Program-made: the position numbers and the translations under genes | Shown: positions 38,397 to 56,647 of the stretch, one piece after another | Layout of the letters: each line of letters opens with the position of its first letter | Position numbering within the stretch: position 1 is the stretch's first letter | Origin: Candidatus Melainabacteria bacterium RIFCSPLOWO2_02_FULL_35_15 | Lineage (GTDB): Bacteria; Cyanobacteriota; Vampirovibrionia; 2-02-FULL-35-15 | DNA: 56,863 bases | Reading direction: 5' to 3' | Assembly (NCBI GenBank): GCA_001784585.1 | Contig: MFRN01000031.1 | Coordinates: 1-56,863 of the forward strand | Notes under the pieces: generated by a model | Told to the model about the DNA's origin: nothing | The model's database searches: none | Seen by the model: only the letters and a program-made list of their open reading frames with translations

Positions 38397-39743
38397 TTAC
38401 TTAGCCTTCTGATAAATAGTAGTTAGTAATTTAATGGTTTCTTCAAATCCTGTGGTTTCATAAATACCTTGCTGTAAAAATGAATCTATAACTGGTTTTA
38501 ATAAAACTGCTTTATCAATTCTTGGATCTGATCCTTTTTCATAGGCACCAATTGCAATTAAATCTTCTGCATTATTATATGTAGCCATCATATTTCTTAC
38601 AAAACCAGCAGCATCCTGATGTTCTTTAGTAGCAAGATCCGGAAAAAGTCTGCTCACACTATTTAAAACATCTACAGAAGGATAATGATTTTTTGCAGCA
38701 ATTGATCTGGATAAGATTATATGTCCGTCTAAAATACCACGTGCAGCATCTGCAATCGGTTCGTTAAAATCATCACCTTCAACAAGTACTGTATAAATAG
38801 CTGTAATAGCACCAGCTTTAGACCTTCCTGATCTTTCTAAAATTTTCGGCAACATTGCAAACACAGAAGGCGTGTAACCCTTCATGGTGGGAGGTTCTCC
38901 GACAGAAAGTCCTACATCCCGTGCTGACATGGCCAGCCTGGTTATTGAATCAGCCATGAGCAGAACATTTTTGCCCTGATCACGAAAATATTCAGCAATT
39001 GTTGTAGCAGTATAAAGGCATTTTACTCTGAGCATTGCCGGCTGATCTGATGTAGCAATAACTACTACAGATTTTTTCAATCCTTCTTCTCCCAGACTGA
39101 CTTCAATAAAATCCTGAACTTCTCTTCCTCTTTCACCCACCAGAGCAATTACGTTTACATCAGCATCTCCATATCGCGCAATCATACCAAGAGTAGTACT
39201 TTTCCCGACACCTGATCCTGAAAATATTCCGATCCTCTGCCCTACACCCAGGGTTAACAACCCGTCAATTACTCTGATTCCCGTAGAAAAAATCGTATCA
39301 ATACGGGGACGTCCATAAGCCTCCGGCGGAGCAGCATCAAGTGCTCTTGGAACCAGACTCCCTTCTAAAGGCTTTCCATCCAGCGGGTTACCGAAAGTAT
39401 CCAGTATTCTTCCAAGCAAATTTTCTCCGACTAAAACTTCAACCGGCCTGCCTGTTTGGGTTATTTTACTGCCCTGGTGTACACCTTTCCCGTCAACCAG
39501 TAAAAGCAATAATGAAATATCACCTCTAAAACCCACTACCTCAGCTGGTTTTATATCACCGTGATCAGTAATCACATTACAAAGCTCCCCAACCATTGCT
39601 CCTGGAAGTTTAGCCTCCAGTAATAATCCAATAACTTTATTTACATAACCAGTCCATTTACGTAATTCGTTTTTGCTTAGAATATCCTGAAGAGCAGAAT
39701 CTAAATCTTTTATATATTCATTGTCAATTAAATTTTCTGACAT
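38397..39743 (-). CDS. Type III export ATPase (FliI/SctN)
   Basis: 448 residues, F1-beta-like. P-loop GIFSGSGVGKST near 165-176, LVGERGREVQDF, Walker B region NVLLMADSITRLAMSAR, GEPPTMKGYTPSVFAMLP, DGHIILSRSIAAKNHYPS. It unfolds substrates and strips chaperones at the base of a flagellum or injectisome. The FliI versus SctN choice cannot be made from motifs alone. AAGGAGAAG lies about 10 bases upstream of the ATG. 85 bases after the FlhA/SctV gene, so they form an operon; no other export-apparatus gene is visible. Confidence 0.9.
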   Translation of the reverse strand: MSENLIDNEYIKDLDSALQDILSKNELRKWTGYVNKVIGLLLEAKLPGAMVGELCNVITDHGDIKPAEVVGFRGDISLLLLLVDGKGVHQGSKITQTGRPVEVLVGENLLGRILDTFGNPLDGKPLEGSLVPRALDAAPPEAYGRPRIDTIFSTGIRVIDGLLTLGVGQRIGIFSGSGVGKSTTLGMIARYGDADVNVIALVGERGREVQDFIEVSLGEEGLKKSVVVIATSDQPAMLRVKCLYTATTIAEYFRDQGKNVLLMADSITRLAMSARDVGLSVGEPPTMKGYTPSVFAMLPKILERSGRSKAGAITAIYTVLVEGDDFNEPIADAARGILDGHIILSRSIAAKNHYPSVDVLNSVSRLFPDLATKEHQDAAGFVRNMMATYNNAEDLIAIGAYEKGSDPRIDKAVLLKPVIDSFLQQGIYETTGFEETIKLLTTIYQKAK

Positions 39744-39802: not shown

Positions 39803-39843
39803 GCGCCAGGACATGCCGAGGTATGTCTCTATGCTGCTGGCGC
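39803..39843. repeat. REP-like palindrome spanning the FlhA/SctV stop codon
   Basis: Outer stem GCGCCAG/CTGGCGC (39803-39809, 39837-39843) and inner stem GACATGCC/GGTATGTC (39810-39817, 39820-39827). The inner part matches the palindromes at 55931-55975 and 56683-56728. The last codons and stop of the export-gate gene lie inside it. Confidence 0.55.
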
Positions 39844-41922
39844 TGCTACTCCTGTCTGATTAATCTCATCTCCAATGGTTTCTAATACCTGTACATTAAA
39901 GTCTGGAGAAAGCTCTGCATATGAAAGCACATGGATATGGGGGTCAAATTGTTCAAGCAATCGGTAAAGAGGGAGTCTTAAACCCGGCCCGCATATTAAA
40001 ACAGGCCTTCTGCCATATCTTTCATTTATTCTCTTGGAAGACTTGGAAATCATGGTAACAAGCTGTTGTATTTGTCTGGGATCTAAAATCAAAACCAGAT
40101 TATTTTCAACACGCTGCAGTGATTCTTCCAGTTTACGTTCTACTGCAGGATTAAATGCAATTGAATAAATTTGTTTTTCAGGAGTAGCAAATTCCAGGCA
40201 TATTTGCCGTCCTAAAGTAATCCTGATTTTTTCAGACAAAAGATCAGGATCTTTTATACCGCTGCATAAATCTTCCAGTCTCTCCAACATAAACTGAACA
40301 TCTCTGACTGAAACTCTTTCTTTTAAAAGATTTACAAATACCCTGCGTAAATCACCAATGCTGATTAAACCCGGTACAAGATTTTCAACAAGCTGTGTAT
40401 CTTTTTGTTTTGCCTGATCAAGTACTTTCTTTACATCTGCTTTTGAAAGAAGCTCATCAATGTTTCTTCTTACCACCTCTGCCAGGTGAGCAGTAATTAC
40501 CCTTACTGCTGGTGTAGCTGGATATTGCCAGTCAATTTGTTCAAGATAGTCCGGGTCAATCCAGTAAGCAGGTTCCTGCAGAGCAGCATCCCAGCCAGGA
40601 AGTCCTCCCGGAGGTGGTTCTGAGTATACCCTGTCCCAATATTCCCTTAACACAAGCATCCTGTCAGGATAAGCTTCACTGGAAGCCACAGTAGTATCTC
40701 TTATAACGATTCTGTATTCGTTTGCATTTAAACTTGGGGCATCCATAATTCTTACAGCAGGCAAAACATACCCGAGGTTTAAAGTTAACTGATGTCTTAA
40801 TGAGGCAATTTCCGGTACAAGGGTCCCTTGCCTTGCCGGATCTGCAATATCAAGTAAATTACGCCCGACCCAGATAGCAAGATTATCAACTTCAAGTAAA
40901 GAGTACATCATGTCCGGACTGCTTGGATTTACTTTTGGTTCAGCAACAGATTGTTCTTCAGTAGCTTTTTGCTCCTGTGCTCTTTTTGCAAAAACAAAAG
41001 CAGCCATACCACCTGTGATAAGTGAAAGAACGATAAATGCAGGAGTCGGAAGCCCTGGCATAAAACCAATTAAAAAAAGTAATCCTGATGCAAGTGCAAG
41101 TGCATTTGGTTTATTCATTATCTGAGTACTAATATCTAACCCAAGACTTTCAGCGCTGGATGTGGATCTGGTAACAATAAGACCTGCTGCAATTGAAAGA
41201 ATAAGTGCTGGAACCTGTGCTGAAAGAGCATCACCAACTGTAAGTATTGAATATTTATGTGCTGCTTGTGCCAGGTCTAAACCTTTTTGAGTTACACCTA
41301 TTGTTAAACCTGCAGTAATATTTACAATAGTTATAACAATACCAGCAATTGCATCACCTTTTATAAACTTACTGGCACCATCCATTGCTCCGTAAAAGGA
41401 AGATTCTCTTTCAAGATCAACTCTTCTTTGTTTTGCAACATCACTGCTGCATAATCCGGCATTAAAGTCTGCATCAATAGACATTTGTTTACCAGGCATT
41501 GCATCTAATGCAAACCTTGCAGAGACTTCAGCAATTCTCTCTGCTCCTTTTGTAACTACAATAAACTGAACAACTGTAATAATTATAAAAATAATAATAC
41601 CTACAACCAGATTTCCTCCTGCTACAAAATTTCCAAACGCACCCACGATCTCCCCGGCGTAGCCGTTTGACAAAATTAACCTGGTAACCGCTATGTTTAA
41701 AGACAACCGCAATAAAGTAGTAATTAAAAGAACCGACGGCAATACTGCGTAATCAAGTGGACGTGCAATATATAAAGCAATGCCTAAAGTAACAATGGCA
41801 AATGAAATATTGGTTGCCAGTGCAATATCCATAAGCCATGTCGGCAGTGGCACTAAAATTAAGAGTAATAGTCCAAATACTACTACTCCAACAAGAATTT
41901 CACCTGGTAAACGACTGTTCAT
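39829..41922 (-). CDS. Type III export gate protein (FlhA/SctV)
   Basis: 697 residues. Seven to eight N-terminal membrane helices, the FHIPEP signature region (RFALDAMPGKQMSIDADFNAG) and a cytoplasmic C-terminal half (from about 330) that docks chaperone-substrate complexes (ITAHLAEVVRRNIDELL, PVLICGPGLRLPLYRLLEQF, VLSYAEL). Forms the nonameric gate of a flagellar or injectisome exporter. No flagellar or needle structural gene lies beside it. The C-terminal residues AAPAA are encoded within a palindrome. Confidence 0.93.
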   Translation of the reverse strand: MNSRLPGEILVGVVVFGLLLLILVPLPTWLMDIALATNISFAIVTLGIALYIARPLDYAVLPSVLLITTLLRLSLNIAVTRLILSNGYAGEIVGAFGNFVAGGNLVVGIIIFIIITVVQFIVVTKGAERIAEVSARFALDAMPGKQMSIDADFNAGLCSSDVAKQRRVDLERESSFYGAMDGASKFIKGDAIAGIVITIVNITAGLTIGVTQKGLDLAQAAHKYSILTVGDALSAQVPALILSIAAGLIVTRSTSSAESLGLDISTQIMNKPNALALASGLLFLIGFMPGLPTPAFIVLSLITGGMAAFVFAKRAQEQKATEEQSVAEPKVNPSSPDMMYSLLEVDNLAIWVGRNLLDIADPARQGTLVPEIASLRHQLTLNLGYVLPAVRIMDAPSLNANEYRIVIRDTTVASSEAYPDRMLVLREYWDRVYSEPPPGGLPGWDAALQEPAYWIDPDYLEQIDWQYPATPAVRVITAHLAEVVRRNIDELLSKADVKKVLDQAKQKDTQLVENLVPGLISIGDLRRVFVNLLKERVSVRDVQFMLERLEDLCSGIKDPDLLSEKIRITLGRQICLEFATPEKQIYSIAFNPAVERKLEESLQRVENNLVLILDPRQIQQLVTMISKSSKRINERYGRRPVLICGPGLRLPLYRLLEQFDPHIHVLSYAELSPDFNVQVLETIGDEINQTGVAAPAA

Positions 41923-49083: not shown

Positions 49084-49968
49084 ATGAACCCGGTAAAATA
49101 TATTGGTTCAAGAAAGGCACTGCCTGCTACCAGTCATCTATACCAGAGATTTATAATCCCTGCTAACAGTGAGATAAAACTTTCTGAAATTGATCCGTGT
49201 GAAACACTGGAATTTACCAGAGAGGTATCACAAAAAATTACAAAAGCAAATGCAGAAAGGATAAGTGAGCTTCAGCGCATACTTTGTGCCACTGAAAAAC
49301 ATTCACTCTTAATTGTTCTCCAAAGTGTGAATGCTTCCGGAAAAGATGGAACAATTCGACATCTTATGAGTAAAACAACTCCACAGGGATGCAAGGTAAC
49401 TTCTTTTAAAGCTCCAACAGAAGAAGAAAGAAGACATGATTATTTATGGAGAGTTCACGAGCATATACCTCCTAAAGGTACTATTGGCATCTTTCATAGA
49501 TCTCATTATGAAGATGTACTGGTTCCACAGGTTAAAGGACTTCTTCCCCGCTCAGAGATTGAATTAAGATACAGGCAAATTAACGACTTTGAAAAAATGC
49601 TTGTAGAAAATGGAGTACAAATAGTCAAGTTTCTCTTACACATAAGCAAAAAAGAGCAATGGCGCAGATTAATGAGAAGGCTTGAACTTGCAGAAAAAAG
49701 ACATAAATTTAATCCTGCTGATTTGGAAGATCAGTTAAATTGGAGTAAACAAATGAAAGCATATGAAGATACTATAAAACACTGCAGTACTTTATGGGCA
49801 CCGTACTTTGTTATACCAGGAGATTATAAATGGTTTAGAAATCTTGCGACTTCCCAGATCGTCAGGAATACCCTTGAAGGAATGAACTTACAGTATCCGG
49901 ATCACAGTATTGAAATCTCTGATGTGAAAATAAAAAAATTGTTACATGGTACAGGTGTTAAACATTAA
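49084..49968 (+). CDS. ppk2: Polyphosphate kinase 2 (class III-like)
   Basis: 294 residues. P-loop variant SVNASGKDGTIRHL near 79-92, lid and substrate motifs FKAPTEEERRHDYLWR, IFHRSHYEDVLVPQV (the HYEDVLV form points to class III, which phosphorylates AMP and ADP), and the C-terminal helix WAPYFVIPGDYKWFRN. Uses polyphosphate to regenerate nucleotides. The 286-base upstream region has two strong hairpins. The PstS-like/HTH fusion is 3 kb away. Confidence 0.93.
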   Translation: MNPVKYIGSRKALPATSHLYQRFIIPANSEIKLSEIDPCETLEFTREVSQKITKANAERISELQRILCATEKHSLLIVLQSVNASGKDGTIRHLMSKTTPQGCKVTSFKAPTEEERRHDYLWRVHEHIPPKGTIGIFHRSHYEDVLVPQVKGLLPRSEIELRYRQINDFEKMLVENGVQIVKFLLHISKKEQWRRLMRRLELAEKRHKFNPADLEDQLNWSKQMKAYEDTIKHCSTLWAPYFVIPGDYKWFRNLATSQIVRNTLEGMNLQYPDHSIEISDVKIKKLLHGTGVKH

Positions 49969-51391: not shown

Positions 51392-52480
51392 ATGACTGTT
51401 GAAATAAATTTCAAGGAACAGAAATATATTACCGATACAATAATTTGGGACAGAGATTCTTACTTCATAGATATAAACAACTACTGGACCAGGTTAACAG
51501 GAACCATTGCACAAAAAGTAGCTGAGAATACTACAAGTAACTGGGGAAATTTTAATCAAATAAGAACACAGGTGGTTAAACTTTTAGGAATCAATCCGGA
51601 CAATAGTTTGATTGAAGCCTCAAGCCCGGTAAATTTCCTGCCAGTAAATATTTTTTCATCACTGTTAACAGGTTCATTAATAAATTTTATTAAAGATAAA
51701 AGTTATGATGAACTGAATGAATTGTTTGGAATAATCATTAACAAATCGCTTGATGAAAGCAAAGATTTTATTAAAGATTCGATAATTTCAGAAAACCTTG
51801 AGGCAGTTAAGCAGGTTCAAAAAAGCACAAAACAAATACTGATTACAAATGATTCAAAAGAAAACAATGAAACTTTTTTAAAGAATTCAGAACTGGAAAA
51901 ATATTTTCATCAGATTTATTCAAATACAAATAAAGAACAACTTCATGATCTGTTAATAGGCAATTCTGTCTTTTTAACAAAAAATACTTTTTTACAAAGC
52001 TCATATTTAAAAAGAAAATTTAAAAATGTTTTAGTAATTGAAAACATAAAAGAAATTTCCCTGAAAGAAACTCAAGAACGAGAGATAATCACTGTAAATA
52101 TCGATGGCGCATCAAAAGGAAATCCGGGACCATCTTCTGTGGGAATTGTTTTTCAGAAAGATAAAAAGCTGATAAAAGAAGTCTCAGAATTTATCGGGAA
52201 TCATACAAATAATTTTGCAGAATATACAGCACTGATAAGAGCACTTGAAATTAGCTTAGAGTATGGCTTTCAGGATATTGAAATAAAATCAGACAGTGAG
52301 CTTGTGGTAAAACAAATAAATAAAGTCTATAAAGTAAAAGATGCTGATATTAAAGATTTGTTTGACAAAGTTAATTCATTAAGTGAGAAGCTCTCTTCAT
52401 TTAAAATTACACATATTCCAAGAGAAGAAAATCTAAGAGCAGATAAGCTGGCTAATCAGGCATTGAGAACCACTACCTGA
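51392..52480 (+). CDS. HAD-like domain fused to RNase HI
   Basis: 362 residues. The C-terminal 130 residues are a complete RNase HI: NIDGASKGNPGP (Asp near 238), NNFAEYTALIRALE (Glu), IKSDSELVVKQIN (Asp), PREENLRADKLAN (Asp). The N-terminal 225 residues look like a HAD-superfamily fold: IIWDRDSYFIDI (motif I, DxD), KQILITNDSKEN (motif II, T), a Lys in NTNKEQLHDLL (motif III), and a final GNSVFLT turn. That assignment is an inference. TAAAAT ends 7 bases before the ATG (leaderless). The 3' end overlaps the HadB-like gene by 25 bases. Confidence 0.7.
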   Translation: MTVEINFKEQKYITDTIIWDRDSYFIDINNYWTRLTGTIAQKVAENTTSNWGNFNQIRTQVVKLLGINPDNSLIEASSPVNFLPVNIFSSLLTGSLINFIKDKSYDELNELFGIIINKSLDESKDFIKDSIISENLEAVKQVQKSTKQILITNDSKENNETFLKNSELEKYFHQIYSNTNKEQLHDLLIGNSVFLTKNTFLQSSYLKRKFKNVLVIENIKEISLKETQEREIITVNIDGASKGNPGPSSVGIVFQKDKKLIKEVSEFIGNHTNNFAEYTALIRALEISLEYGFQDIEIKSDSELVVKQINKVYKVKDADIKDLFDKVNSLSEKLSSFKITHIPREENLRADKLANQALRTTT

Positions 52481-52854
52481 GCATTAGTAATCACATCTTC
52501 ATTTCTCTGGTTTTTAACTATAAGATCAATTGTCGCTAAATTATTTTCAATATTTACAATGTTACCTTTAATAGAAAGTGTATCAAGCGGCCTGACAATA
52601 TTCCTGAATCTTACTTTTATTTTTTTTAATTTTTCCGGATTGTTATCACCAATAGCTACCCTGCAAACAAAAGCCATTGTACAGAGTCCCTGCAAAATAA
52701 GACCCGGCAATCCTACGCTCTTTGCAAATTCATTATCTATGTGAATAAGATTAAAGTCTCCGGAAGCACCGGCATAATAAAACGGGCAATATTTATCTAC
52801 AATAATTTCAACTGGTTTAATTTCCTGATTCATTTTTAATGCTCTGTCATTCAT
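52456..52854 (-). CDS. HadB-like MaoC dehydratase (catalytic half)
   Basis: 132 residues; ATG at 52854, or the ATG of MNQEIKPVEI at 52833. Hot-dog fold with the hydratase-2 motif GDFNLIHIDNEFAKSVGLPG (Asp and His present) and LILQGLCTMAFV. Likely partner of the HadA-like protein 3.7 kb away on the other strand. Start overlaps the end of the HTH/PstS gene by 8 bases, so the two are co-transcribed. Confidence 0.78.
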   Translation of the reverse strand: MNDRALKMNQEIKPVEIIVDKYCPFYYAGASGDFNLIHIDNEFAKSVGLPGLILQGLCTMAFVCRVAIGDNNPEKLKKIKVRFRNIVRPLDTLSIKGNIVNIENNLATIDLIVKNQRNEDVITNAQVVVLNA

Positions 52855-54244
52855 TATATACCGGTATCAAACCTGAATAAGCAACAATCTTTTGACCTTC
52901 TTTACTTAAGACCCATAATATAAAATTCTGGACATTCTTTGGTGCATCAGCCTGTGTAATTAAATATAAATAATGTGCGAGCGGATAATCTCCATATCTT
53001 ATGGCATCTTTATTTAATTTTTGTTCTTCAAACGGAGAAACAGCTGGAGAATTATCATAGTTTTTAACTTTTAAATATTTAATATCTTGATTTTTCCAGG
53101 GGTAGTTTGTAGAGTTTGTGAAACTAATTGCTCCTTCATGTTCAGCGACATATCGAATAAGTTCATTGTTTAAATTCTTGCTGATAATTGAGGATGAAAA
53201 GCTGTCTCCCTGCAGAACTCTGTTTATTACAAACTCATTTGTTCCGCTGCCTTTTTCTCTAATTACCGGTGTTAGAGGCTTTTCGAAAGAATTTAAGCTA
53301 ACCTCTTTCCAGTTTTTTATTTCATTACTAAAGATTTTTTCCAGAGCATCCAGACTAATCTCATCAACAGGATTTTTTTTATTAACAATGATTATCAAAG
53401 CATCCAGCGCAACTCTGTTTTCAGCCAGTTCTAATCCGTGCTCAGATGCCCTCTTTCTGTCCAAAAATGTTATGGGTCTGCTGGAATTTGCTATGTCAAT
53501 CCTTCCTTCTATAAGACTGTTTATACCCTTGTCAGAATCCGATGAAATTAAATCAATATGGTATTTAGGATAATCTATATGAAACGAATTTTCCCATCTT
53601 CGTGCAAGTACAAATAAACTGCTTGAGCCTGAAATTCTGATAGCTTTATTCTTTCCTCCAGCTGATTTTCCGCTTCCGGTCTCCAGTGCAAAATCCCTCG
53701 AATTAAGAAAAAGCTGATTTAAAGCAGGCAGATTATGGAGAAAATATTTTTGTATAATAAAATAACTGCCTGCAAAAAGGATTACATAAAAAGCTAAGCT
53801 GAAAATAAAAGCAAAAAAAGAAGGTTGCCTTTTAATCTCTGCCTGCTTTTGAGCTGGAGTTTGCTTTATCTGTTTTTGTTCTTTTTGAGGTTCTTTTGTT
53901 TCCTGTTTTATTTTTGGCAATTCTATGACTTTCTGTATCTTTTCAAACACAAGATCACCTTGCTTCAATTTTTCTTTGATATTTTTAGTTCCTGCTATAA
54001 GAATCTTTTCCACTTCATCTTTAGATTTATTGATACACTGGGCAATCTTTTCACAGGAGAGATTCTGAAAATACCTGAGATCTAATACTTCCTGCTCTTG
54101 TCTGGAAAGCAAGGTAATTATTTTTTTTATATTACCTTTTAGTTTTAATATTTCATTTACTGCACTTTTATCATATTTGTCCGAAGGTTTAAAGTTTAAA
54201 ATAATTTCCAGAGATTTTTCATTTAAAATATCCTGAGATTGCAT
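52847..54244 (-). CDS. Membrane-anchored sigma-4-like HTH fused to PstS-like phosphate-binding domain
   Basis: 465 residues in three parts. (1) Residues about 43-95: ITLLSRQEQEVLDLRYFQ then LSCEKIAQCINKSKDEVEK, the helix-turn-helix pattern of sigma-70 region 4. (2) A Lys/Gln/Pro-rich linker (100-140) and a single membrane helix (about 143-165). (3) Residues 200-463: a PstS-type periplasmic binding domain with ISGSSSLFVLARRWENSF, EGRIDIANSSRPI, the phosphate-site motif IREKGSGTNEFV and EGAISFTNS. Predicted topology: HTH in cytoplasm, binding domain outside. TAGAAT ends 7 bases before the ATG. Function is inferred: a phosphate-sensing membrane regulator. Confidence 0.8.
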   Translation of the reverse strand: MQSQDILNEKSLEIILNFKPSDKYDKSAVNEILKLKGNIKKIITLLSRQEQEVLDLRYFQNLSCEKIAQCINKSKDEVEKILIAGTKNIKEKLKQGDLVFEKIQKVIELPKIKQETKEPQKEQKQIKQTPAQKQAEIKRQPSFFAFIFSLAFYVILFAGSYFIIQKYFLHNLPALNQLFLNSRDFALETGSGKSAGGKNKAIRISGSSSLFVLARRWENSFHIDYPKYHIDLISSDSDKGINSLIEGRIDIANSSRPITFLDRKRASEHGLELAENRVALDALIIIVNKKNPVDEISLDALEKIFSNEIKNWKEVSLNSFEKPLTPVIREKGSGTNEFVINRVLQGDSFSSSIISKNLNNELIRYVAEHEGAISFTNSTNYPWKNQDIKYLKVKNYDNSPAVSPFEEQKLNKDAIRYGDYPLAHYLYLITQADAPKNVQNFILWVLSKEGQKIVAYSGLIPVYNE

Positions 54245-54256
54245 TTTTATTATTCT

Positions 54257-54333
54257 AGCTCAAGACAAGCTTGAGCTTCTATCGGTCAATCCATCTCGTA
54301 TGATCGGATTTGCCCAATAAATGGGACAAATCC
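54257..54333 (-). promoter_or_regulatory. Two-hairpin element, copy B, abutting the HTH/PstS promoter
   Basis: On the minus strand: hairpin 1 (54333-54306, GGATTTG/CAAATCC plus CCCA/TGGG, bulged T, loop TTTAT), 28-base spacer, hairpin 2 (54277-54257, AGCTCAAG/CTTGAGCT, loop CTTGT). Its last T is the first base of TAGAAT, the -10 of the downstream gene. Same length (77) and layout as copy A at 21070-21146. Confidence 0.75.
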
Positions 54334-54381: not shown

Positions 54382-54570
54382 TTATATTTGTCCGAGATTT
54401 TGAAGTCTGGAGAAATGCTTTCCTTTAACATATTCCAGAGACGGTGACTGATTTAAGTGATATGCTTTGCATGTAAGTTCTATTAAAAGGTTTAAGGTTT
54501 TTGCATTCACAAAAGATGCCCATTCATCTTCATAATATTCTTCTACTGTTTTTCTGTTTATGGTAATCAT
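54382..54570 (-). CDS. Small protein, unknown function
   Basis: 62 residues; not recognised. Starts MITINRKTVEEYYEDEWASF; helical, acidic N-terminus and a basic end (KGKHFSRLQNLGQ). Begins 13 bases after the stop of the Pro-rich gene upstream, so probably the last gene of that operon. It may be a chaperone-sized partner protein, but nothing specific supports this. Confidence 0.45.
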   Translation of the reverse strand: MITINRKTVEEYYEDEWASFVNAKTLNLLIELTCKAYHLNQSPSLEYVKGKHFSRLQNLGQI

Positions 54571-54583
54571 TTCGTAGACCTAA

Positions 54584-54910
54584 CTAAGCAATAGGAAAAT
54601 TTTTATCAACTTCCTCGAGCAATTTTCTGCGTGCCTCACGAGATAAGCCAAACTTGTCACCAAAACTATCCACAGCATTTACTCGTGCTACTGCTTGTTC
54701 AAGCAATCCTGAAGGAAGAGGAGGAGGAGCAGCAGGAGCAGCTGAAGCAATAGGTGGTGGTGGCGTATTTGCAGTAGGCGGTAAAGACTGAAATTCATCT
54801 GTTGTATTAGCTGGTGGTGGAGTTTGTGGACTTACAACTCTTTTTACTGGCTGCTCTCCATTTACTGATCCTGAACCACCTGCTGGATTAACATTATTTG
54901 GACCTGGCAT
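54584..54910 (-). CDS. Small Pro/Ala-rich protein, unknown function
   Basis: 108 residues. The first 70 are disordered-looking, rich in Pro, Ala, Asn and Thr (PPTANTPPPPIASAAPAAPP); the last 40 form a charged helix (DKFGLSREARRKLLEEVDKN). No signal peptide. AAAGAGG lies 7 bases upstream of the ATG. An unfolded N-terminus is what type III or ESX-like substrates often show; the export pair at 38-42 kb makes this worth noting, without proof. Confidence 0.5.
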   Translation of the reverse strand: MPGPNNVNPAGGSGSVNGEQPVKRVVSPQTPPPANTTDEFQSLPPTANTPPPPIASAAPAAPPPLPSGLLEQAVARVNAVDSFGDKFGLSREARRKLLEEVDKNFPIA

Positions 54911-55064
54911 AAAAAACCTCTTTCTTTTAATTTTACTTGTTACTTACCACTTTTAACCTATATTTAACCCTGGTACATAACTCTACGATTATATAAAGAC
55001 AGAGGGTCTAAAAAGTTGATAGTTGAAACATTAATTTTTTTTAATAAATGAAAATCTTAATAAT

Positions 55065-55526
55065 TTATACCTGCATTGCCTGCAAGTCGTCTTTTTTGCG
55101 CTTGTTTTCGTTTTGACGAAGAGTATCAATAGCTCCGCCTACCTGGTTTAAGAATGCCAGTGTAGATGCTAACTGGGCATGTCGTAGTTTGGAATCATGT
55201 GAAATCTCAGAAACATCTGCTACTGCCTGTCCATAAAGCCTTTCACTCAATACATTTCCGGCATATTTGCCAAGCATATTTCCTACAGAATAACCCAGCG
55301 CAATTCCTGCTGGCCCGCCAAATACACCTGCAGCCAGGCCTAAGCCTGAAGCCAGACCAGAAATCTTTTGTTTTAACTTACCTATCCTTACCTGAAGTTC
55401 ACCGCCTTGTTTTAAAGAATCCATATAATCCTGAAAGTTACTGTTTAATAAGGTCTTATACTTATTTTCCATGGAATCTTGTTCAATATACATTTGGGCA
55501 AGTGAAGTTGGTTCAACAATATGCAT
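55065..55526 (-). CDS. Small glycine-zipper protein, unknown function
   Basis: 153 residues. Helical N-terminus (LAQMYIEQDSMENKYKTLL), a central Gly-rich hydrophobic stretch (ISGLASGLGLAAGVFGGPAG then IALGYSVGNMLGKYAGN) with GxxxG spacing able to insert in a membrane, and a basic helical tail. AAGGAG 8 bases upstream sets the start. Size and layout resemble pore-forming or translocator-like small proteins, but no family is recognised. Confidence 0.55.
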   Translation of the reverse strand: MHIVEPTSLAQMYIEQDSMENKYKTLLNSNFQDYMDSLKQGGELQVRIGKLKQKISGLASGLGLAAGVFGGPAGIALGYSVGNMLGKYAGNVLSERLYGQAVADVSEISHDSKLRHAQLASTLAFLNQVGGAIDTLRQNENKRKKDDLQAMQV

Positions 55527-55567
55527 TTTCTGTCTCCTTGAAAGGTGTTTAATAGATTAAAAGTCTA

Positions 55568-55834
55568 TTATTCCTTAATTAACTCCCAGGCTTTTTTCAT
55601 GCTGGCTTTTTCTTCTTTTACAACATCAAACCAAAACTGTTCTTTTTGTAACTGGTTTCCCATGGTAGCTCTTGTAACTGAGAGTATTTGTCTGGCTGCA
55701 TAAGGGTCACCGTAACCAAGAACCGCTAACTGGGTTAACTGTTCTGCAAAAGTATTATCCTGTGTTGCCTGCGAAACACCTTCCTGGGCTGTAGCAAGCT
55801 CTGCTATTGGATTTATATAATTTATAACTGCCAT
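55568..55834 (-). CDS. Small helical protein, distant relative of the 56054 protein
   Basis: 88 residues from MAVINYINPIAELATAQ; the start is set by GGAGG 8 bases upstream, and the longer frame to 55915 runs into the repeat block. All-helical. The C-terminal helix EQFWFDVVKEEKASMKKAWE aligns with ENFWNEIVSANKAAEQKTQE of the neighbour at 56054-56440 (shared E-x-F-W, I/V-V, K-A, K), indicating one family. Size is like type III needle or inner-rod subunits, which is only a suggestion. Confidence 0.6.
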   Translation of the reverse strand: MAVINYINPIAELATAQEGVSQATQDNTFAEQLTQLAVLGYGDPYAARQILSVTRATMGNQLQKEQFWFDVVKEEKASMKKAWELIKE

Positions 55835-55895
55835 ATTTTTGTCCTCCGATTTAGATTTAAATTTGGCTATGTTTGTCAATCGTTCGTCGTTTAAC

Positions 55896-55975
55896 GAACG
55901 TGGGTATTTAAACATATTATATTTAAGAGAACGTTATGGGTAGAAACATGCCTTGGTATGTCTCTTGTGGCATTA
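55896..55975. repeat. Conserved intergenic block, copy 1
   Basis: About 80 bases (CGAACGTGGGTATTTAAACA and on) nearly identical to 56648-56728. Contains the palindrome AGACATACC/GGCATGTTT type and, on the minus strand, TATAAT (55922-55917) that may drive the gene starting at 55834. Confidence 0.75.
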
Positions 55976-55987
55976 TAAAAACAAAAA

Positions 55988-56017
55988 AACCGCGAAGGTT
56001 TTTTTTTCTTCGCGGTT
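55988..56017 (-). terminator. Intrinsic terminator (usable on both strands)
   Basis: AACCGCGAAG (55988-55997) pairs with CTTCGCGGTT (56008-56017), 10-bp perfect stem followed on the minus strand by TTTTTTTG. It lies about 37 bases after the stop of the gene at 56054-56440. Confidence 0.85.
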
Positions 56018-56053
56018 TTCTTTTTCTTGTTCTTATTACAAGTGGTAGAACTA

Positions 56054-56440
56054 TTAACCACCTGCTGGCTTGAACATTTCCTGTGTCTTTTGTTCTGCGG
56101 CCTTATTGGCAGATACAATTTCATTCCAGAAGTTCTCTGCAGTTCTTAGCTCACCTTCGTATGCTCTTGCTCTGTAGAGTTCCTGTCTGACTACGTTTGC
56201 ATCATTTGCACCGTTTGGATGTGCCTCTGTATTCAGCCCGGAGACTGGTTGAACACCGGGGGTGCTGGGATCAGCATCAAATGATTCTCCAAGAATAAGT
56301 GCTGTTAACAATCCTTCCAAATCTCTTACCCTTTGCTCAGCTACACTAATTTTATTTCTGATTTCTGCCAAACGATCTGACGGATTAACACTCTGAGTGC
56401 CTCCTGACGTTGGTACTGGCATTATACTTAATATAAACAT
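56054..56440 (-). CDS. Small helical protein, tandem paralogue family
   Basis: 128 residues from MFILSIMPVPTSGGTQ; start set by AAAGGAGG about 8 bases upstream. Two predicted coiled-coil stretches (DRLAEIRNKISVAEQRVRDL and the region ANVVRQELYRARAYEGELRT) around a disordered Pro/Asn loop, ending AEQKTQEMFKPAGG. No signal peptide. A second copy of its 3' end begins at 56798, so genes of this type stand in tandem, each with its own terminator. Function unknown; compatible with an exported filament or secreted subunit. Confidence 0.65.
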   Translation of the reverse strand: MFILSIMPVPTSGGTQSVNPSDRLAEIRNKISVAEQRVRDLEGLLTALILGESFDADPSTPGVQPVSGLNTEAHPNGANDANVVRQELYRARAYEGELRTAENFWNEIVSANKAAEQKTQEMFKPAGG

Positions 56441-56647
56441 GATTTTTCCTCCTTTTGAAACAAGAATGAATTTCACTCTTATTTTCTTTTTTTCTAACGC
56501 AGCACAATTAACTAAAAAATTAATTATTCTGCGACGAGGTGTATTAAGCAGGATAACCCTTAAAAGAAAGTAATGAAAACTTAATTCTTAAATAAATTTA
56601 ATTTGTGTTTTATGTCTCTTGCAAGCCAGTCCTGAAACCGTTTGCAA

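Follow-up and report, generated by a model that had tools for sequence, protein, structure and literature searches.

Membrane-spanning regulators of the ToxR, CadC and TcpP type join a cytoplasmic helix-turn-helix (HTH), which in these proteins is a winged OmpR-type domain, through one membrane helix to an extracytoplasmic sensor. PstS, the phosphate-binding protein of the Pst importer, is free or lipid-anchored. A sigma factor is the subunit through which RNA polymerase locates promoters, and its region 4 (sigma-4) domain normally binds the beta-flap of the polymerase or an anti-sigma factor. Sigma-4-only positive control factors are soluble activators that have neither a membrane nor a sensor part. 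In ECF52 SCO4117 and IutY, a whole sigma factor shares one chain with a membrane helix, an extracytoplasmic domain and an anti-sigma-like part, and proteolytic release has been described or proposed for these membrane-extended sigma factors (PMC8999054). PhyR, a response regulator of the general stress response, has a sigma-like domain that binds its known protein partner NepR instead of promoters, and lacks a membrane helix or binding-protein domain (PMC8999054).

The gene reported here lies in a window of 56,863 nucleotides (contig MFRN01000031.1, assembly GCA_001784585.1) from the 1.94-Mb genome of Candidatus Melainabacteria bacterium RIFCSPLOWO2_02_FULL_35_15. The frame that had been claimed from the sequence alone was correct; it starts with ATG, runs on the minus strand (54244→52847) and encodes 465 aa (Table 1). 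The product resembles ToxR, CadC and TcpP in its layout; however, its HTH is a sigma-4 fragment without the DNA-reading residue pair of related sigmas and its sensor is a PstS domain. As in ECF52 SCO4117 and IutY, one chain carries a sigma sequence, a membrane helix and an extracytoplasmic domain, but only the sigma-4 end is present. The fold, the R-x-x-GSGT loop and the SSR motif are those of PstS/PBP_like_2 proteins (TIGR02136, PF12849; 4gd5 with bound phosphate), whereas the anchor is an internal helix preceded by a large cytoplasmic domain. The sigma-4-like domain without sigma-2 is shared with the sigma-4-only positive control factors (NF005385), and the possession of a sigma-like domain with PhyR. 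No paper on sigma-4 and PstS joined in one regulator was found in the literature searched, which is weak evidence of absence. We classify the protein as a membrane-tethered receptor or regulator type that is neither a DNA-binding one-component regulator nor a sigma factor.

Table 1. Positions of the fused gene, its protein segments and surrounding features in the window.
Feature	Position	Strand	Basis
465-aa gene: sigma-4 fragment, one membrane helix, PstS-type domain	52847..54244	-	ORF and homologues
Residues 8-99, cytoplasmic domain (pre-sigma-4 helix and sigma-4)	53948..54223	-	hhalign, Pfam, fold
Residues 73-85, start of recognition helix; unconserved, Ser-Arg pair lost	53990..54028	-	alignments
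Residues 143-169, single transmembrane helix (signal anchor)	53738..53818	-	hydropathy and predicted helix
Residues 199-463, extracytoplasmic PstS/PBP_like_2 domain	52856..53650	-	PF12849 and Foldseek
Residues R329-N336 (REKGSGTN), phosphate-pocket loop	53237..53260	-	invariant columns
-10-like hexamer TAGAAT, 7 nt upstream of ATG	54252..54257	-	family comparison
MaoC/HadB-like dehydratase gene, overlaps stop of fused gene	52456..52854	-	PF01575 E 1.1e-19, synteny
PPK2 gene between Der and HadA	49084-49968	+	PF03976 E 8.6e-64
Cluster of five small proteins upstream of fused gene	54382-56476	-	synteny, no Pfam family
T3SS-type ATPase gene (T3SS_ATPase_C)	38400-39743	-	domain match
FHIPEP export-gate gene	39832-41922	-	domain match

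A search for the same domain order in related genomes had been proposed. The window genome belongs to a family of non-photosynthetic relatives of cyanobacteria, and each of the 11 genomes sampled from this family keeps the order, with one copy per genome; therefore, a chance or broken fusion was ruled out. The homologues in the ten other genomes are stop-free and 43-70% identical to the window protein, one of them, from a draft genome, being split over two contigs. The named relatives carrying the gene are Candidatus Melainabacteria and Candidatus Caenarcanales. A contig scan with motifs specific to the window's family returned members of that family only. Among the genomes of the phylum and class that we sampled, those with the full architecture all belonged to this family, apart from a diverged version in a second family of the class (f4).

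Residues 43-95 had been read as sigma-70 region 4, a claim that was to fall if they matched no sigma-4 or HTH family; Pfam, profile and fold matches agree in placing them there. The whole protein scores just below the Pfam Sigma70_r4 cut-off (22.1 bits; cut-off 24.1), the N-terminal 100 residues alone exceed it (25.6 bits), and PF04545 and PF08281 are matched by 10 of 10 family members at E<=0.01. The PDB chains matched by the family profile were those of SigF, FliA, WhiG and SigW (best E 1.8e-7), and the positive control factor family NF005385 was matched at E 2.5e-4. For the modelled N-terminal domain (pLDDT 90), the structural matches were almost all sigma factors and included region 4 structures (target-normalised TM 0.78-0.82; Foldseek E-values weak at 0.006-0.13, the domain being small and helical) such as 2h27, the structure of sigmaE region 4 on its -35 DNA. 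Domain profile searches gave no sigma-2 match anywhere in the 465 aa, so that of these two sigma-70 domains only sigma-4 is present. The best match of the residue 1-100 profile elsewhere in these genomes is a FliA/WhiG-like sigma factor of approximately 260 residues that occurs in several families of the class (loci L116-L118 and L120-L128; the window genome's gene lies on G000:C43). In hhalign, residues 3-96 pair with the final ~100 residues of this sigma factor (E 9e-16, probability 98.6%) and, judged by this alignment, the cytoplasmic domain is homologous to the C-terminal part of the class-wide sigma factor.

The single membrane helix of the sequence-only reading was confirmed by hydropathy, with exactly one hydrophobic segment in each of the 15 homologues tested from both families (core 146-164 in the window protein). 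Positive residues in these homologues are mostly more numerous before the helix than after it, and hence the N-terminus is predicted inside and the C-terminus outside; a prediction of both ends on the same side, which was to count against the reading, was not obtained.

The outer part had been called PstS-like, which holds: PF12849 is matched at residues 198-449 (E 3e-36), and Foldseek finds phosphate-binding proteins nearest in fold, among them 4gd5 and 4q8r (target TM 0.86-0.87), with a match to 9l8j as well. TIGR02136 is matched at E 1.1e-49, yet below its cut-off (169 vs 206.6 bits). The motif GSGTNEFV is present at residues 332-339, and the pocket residues R329, G332-N336, S255 and R256 are invariant in 10 of 10 members of the window's family, all of which thus carry the R..GSGT loop and the SSR motif on a periplasmic-binding-protein (PBP) fold. 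The gene is not encoded with pstCAB; PstCA lies on another contig (C35), and no pst gene occurs in the synteny block. Motifs and fold together suggest that the outer domain binds inorganic phosphate.

In family f4, a diverged N-terminal domain is followed by one helix and a PBP domain. This N-terminal domain matches the class-wide sigma factor (E 2.7e-7, score 50.2; at most 19.8 in 100 column shuffles) as well as the cytoplasmic domain of the window's family. In a quick tree, window-family and f4 PBP domains fall into a single clade (SH-aLRT 96), separate from canonical PstS and from cyanobacterial PstS. Given the shared sigma match and the single PBP clade, the fusion probably predates both families. 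The f4 pocket is degenerate, with R329 replaced by Leu or Lys and the loop altered. PstC was not convincingly found in eight f4 genomes, which carry Na/Pi cotransporters; these cotransporters were not found in the six window-family genomes searched, nor was PiT in nine genomes of that family. Pocket retention goes together with the Pst importer, in what is one evolutionary contrast only. A simple comparison is thereby offered, between families of shared architecture of which the window's has an intact pocket and PstCA and f4 has neither.

The reading that we favour, tentatively and with somewhat less than even confidence, is a membrane-tethered phosphate receptor whose sigma-4 remnant contacts a protein of the transcription machinery and which may also serve PstCAB. 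As a receptor, the protein would cross the membrane once, from a cytoplasmic N-terminus to a C-terminus on the outer side, where the PstS-type domain would bind inorganic phosphate, and occupancy would change how the cytoplasmic domain is arranged or how available it is. The sigma-4 remnant would not read a -35 element; it would grip a usual sigma-4 partner, the beta-flap or an anti-sigma factor, these being the candidates because sigma-4 domains normally bind them. Phosphate status would reach transcription through sigma mimicry or tethering and, in most members of the window's family, the fused protein may double as the binding subunit feeding PstCAB. If true, this would make a membrane-bound sigma remnant a signalling domain and link a phosphate-binding protein straight to RNA polymerase or an anti-sigma factor.

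The window genome encodes PstC, PstA and PstB, and in addition has two PhoU genes and nine histidine kinases that score above the HisKA threshold. These genes rule out a loss of all classical phosphate control, and leave the earlier suggestion that the protein bypasses PstSCAB-PhoU-PhoR unsupported. Across the window's family, PstC is present in 10 of the 11 genomes (partial in G010), and only G005 and G007 have a canonical pstS next to it. Pairs of pstC and pstA without an adjacent pstS were located at L095:5468-7297 (G000:C35), L096, L098, L099, L100 and L102. All 11 genomes encode a second PstS-fold protein in which Asp replaces the pocket Arg and whose ligand is perhaps not phosphate; in the nine genomes other than G005 and G007, where it is the only other PstS-fold match, the loop reads NDSSGNGT. 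Its genes are at L053:4729-5637 (G000:C30), L139-L142 and L170-L175, and in the window genome two receptor-type ABC binding proteins follow it. The fused protein is the only PstS-fold match with an intact canonical loop in 9 of the 11 genomes, and a role as the PstCAB binding subunit is therefore possible.

These observations bear on the explanation that a membrane-anchored binding protein has replaced free PstS for PstCAB, with a sigma-4 remnant that is structural or transporter-linked (eg. through PstB or PhoU contact) and has no role in transcription. The absence of a canonical pstS beside PstCA in most members, the Asp in the only other PstS-fold protein and the retention of the pocket only where PstC exists are all as it would have them. 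However, G005 and G007 retain a canonical PstS together with an intact fused protein, G003 has the fused protein and PstB but PstC was not found there, and conservation in parts of the cytoplasmic domain equals that of the binding domain; we regard this explanation as somewhat unlikely. A dual-function PstS, acting both as Pst receptor and as bearer of a captured sigma-4 fragment, so that occupancy would reach transcription by protein contact and separately from PhoU-PhoR, is in our judgement unlikely.

The sequence-only reading had proposed a ToxR/CadC-like one-component regulator, with the sigma-4 HTH on promoter DNA under the control of outside phosphate. The architecture of that proposal stands, in that sigma-4 fold, topology and intact pocket agree with a cytoplasmic HTH, one transmembrane helix and an outside sensor, and over their first 100 residues 7 of 10 members are basic (pI 7.9-9.6), though three are acidic there. 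Its DNA-reading part does not. The Ser-Arg pair that opens the recognition helix is invariant in 12 of 12 related sigma factors and missing from every fused protein; the two positions read DE, DE, DE, EE, DE, EK, EE, DQ, HE and KE in the ten window-family fusions, a mostly acidic set, and the Arg is likewise absent in f4. Mean pairwise identity within the window's family is 0.30 in the recognition region, which varies between genera, as compared to 0.65 in the N-terminal helix, 0.51 in helix 1, 0.55 in helix 2 and 0.56 in the binding domain. When 13 HTH positions are drawn at random, 3% of the draws score as low as the recognition region. In the true sigma factor of seven of the same genomes, nearly all recognition-helix positions are invariant. 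The best-conserved cytoplasmic parts are thus the extra N-terminal helix and helices 1-2, not the recognition helix, and the conserved sigma-4 positions belong mostly to the structural core and are no proof of a binding surface. We read this pattern as a sigma-4 fold whose scaffold was retained and whose promoter recognition was lost. In a family-wide comparison of the sequences upstream of the fused gene, no conserved operator motif was found and only a -10-like hexamer is shared, although a lineage-specific, fast-changing target site is conceivable. With the Ser-Arg pair lost to mostly acidic residues and the helix poorly conserved, a promoter-reading switch of this kind is quite unlikely. 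Release of the sigma-4 fragment by a phosphate-controlled protease cascade would suit the topology, the long linkers of low conservation that flank the membrane helix and the precedent of membrane-extended sigma factors (IutY, ECF52; PMC8999054), but a freed piece without sigma-2 cannot be a sigma factor alone and we consider this very improbable.

The shared hexamer, TA(A/G)AAT, stands 7-10 nt before the start codon of the fused gene in all 11 family members, a placement that suggests a promoter giving leaderless transcripts. The same hexamer is also frequent before the RNase H-like gene, compared with about one fifth of the other ORFs.

The MaoC/HadB-like gene directly follows the fused gene, on its strand, in all relatives with a contig that extends this far, and beyond it lie a convergent RNase H-like gene and the Der, HadA-like, RsmD and GH57 genes. 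No conserved regulatory neighbour of the fused gene was found. Two neighbours had been brought into the earlier argument. The supposed HAD-like protein (51392-52480) has only a sub-threshold HAD match (E 0.016) and is an RNase H protein. The ppk2 gene is real, but none of the seven relatives with a contig across this interval has it there; with PPK2 at this interval only in the window genome, where it is probably a recent insertion, a polyphosphate link was ruled out.

Upstream, the small-protein cluster, which includes an 88-aa protein that is 61-90% identical across the window's family, is syntenic in that family. In f4, the neighbours differ, the fused gene being near dnaN, and a link of the fused gene to this cluster or to the type III export genes was set aside on that ground. 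The small proteins are possibly secreted or part of an export system. As a search of seven window-family genomes found no flagellin, the T3SS-type ATPase and FHIPEP genes likely belong to a non-flagellar type III export system.
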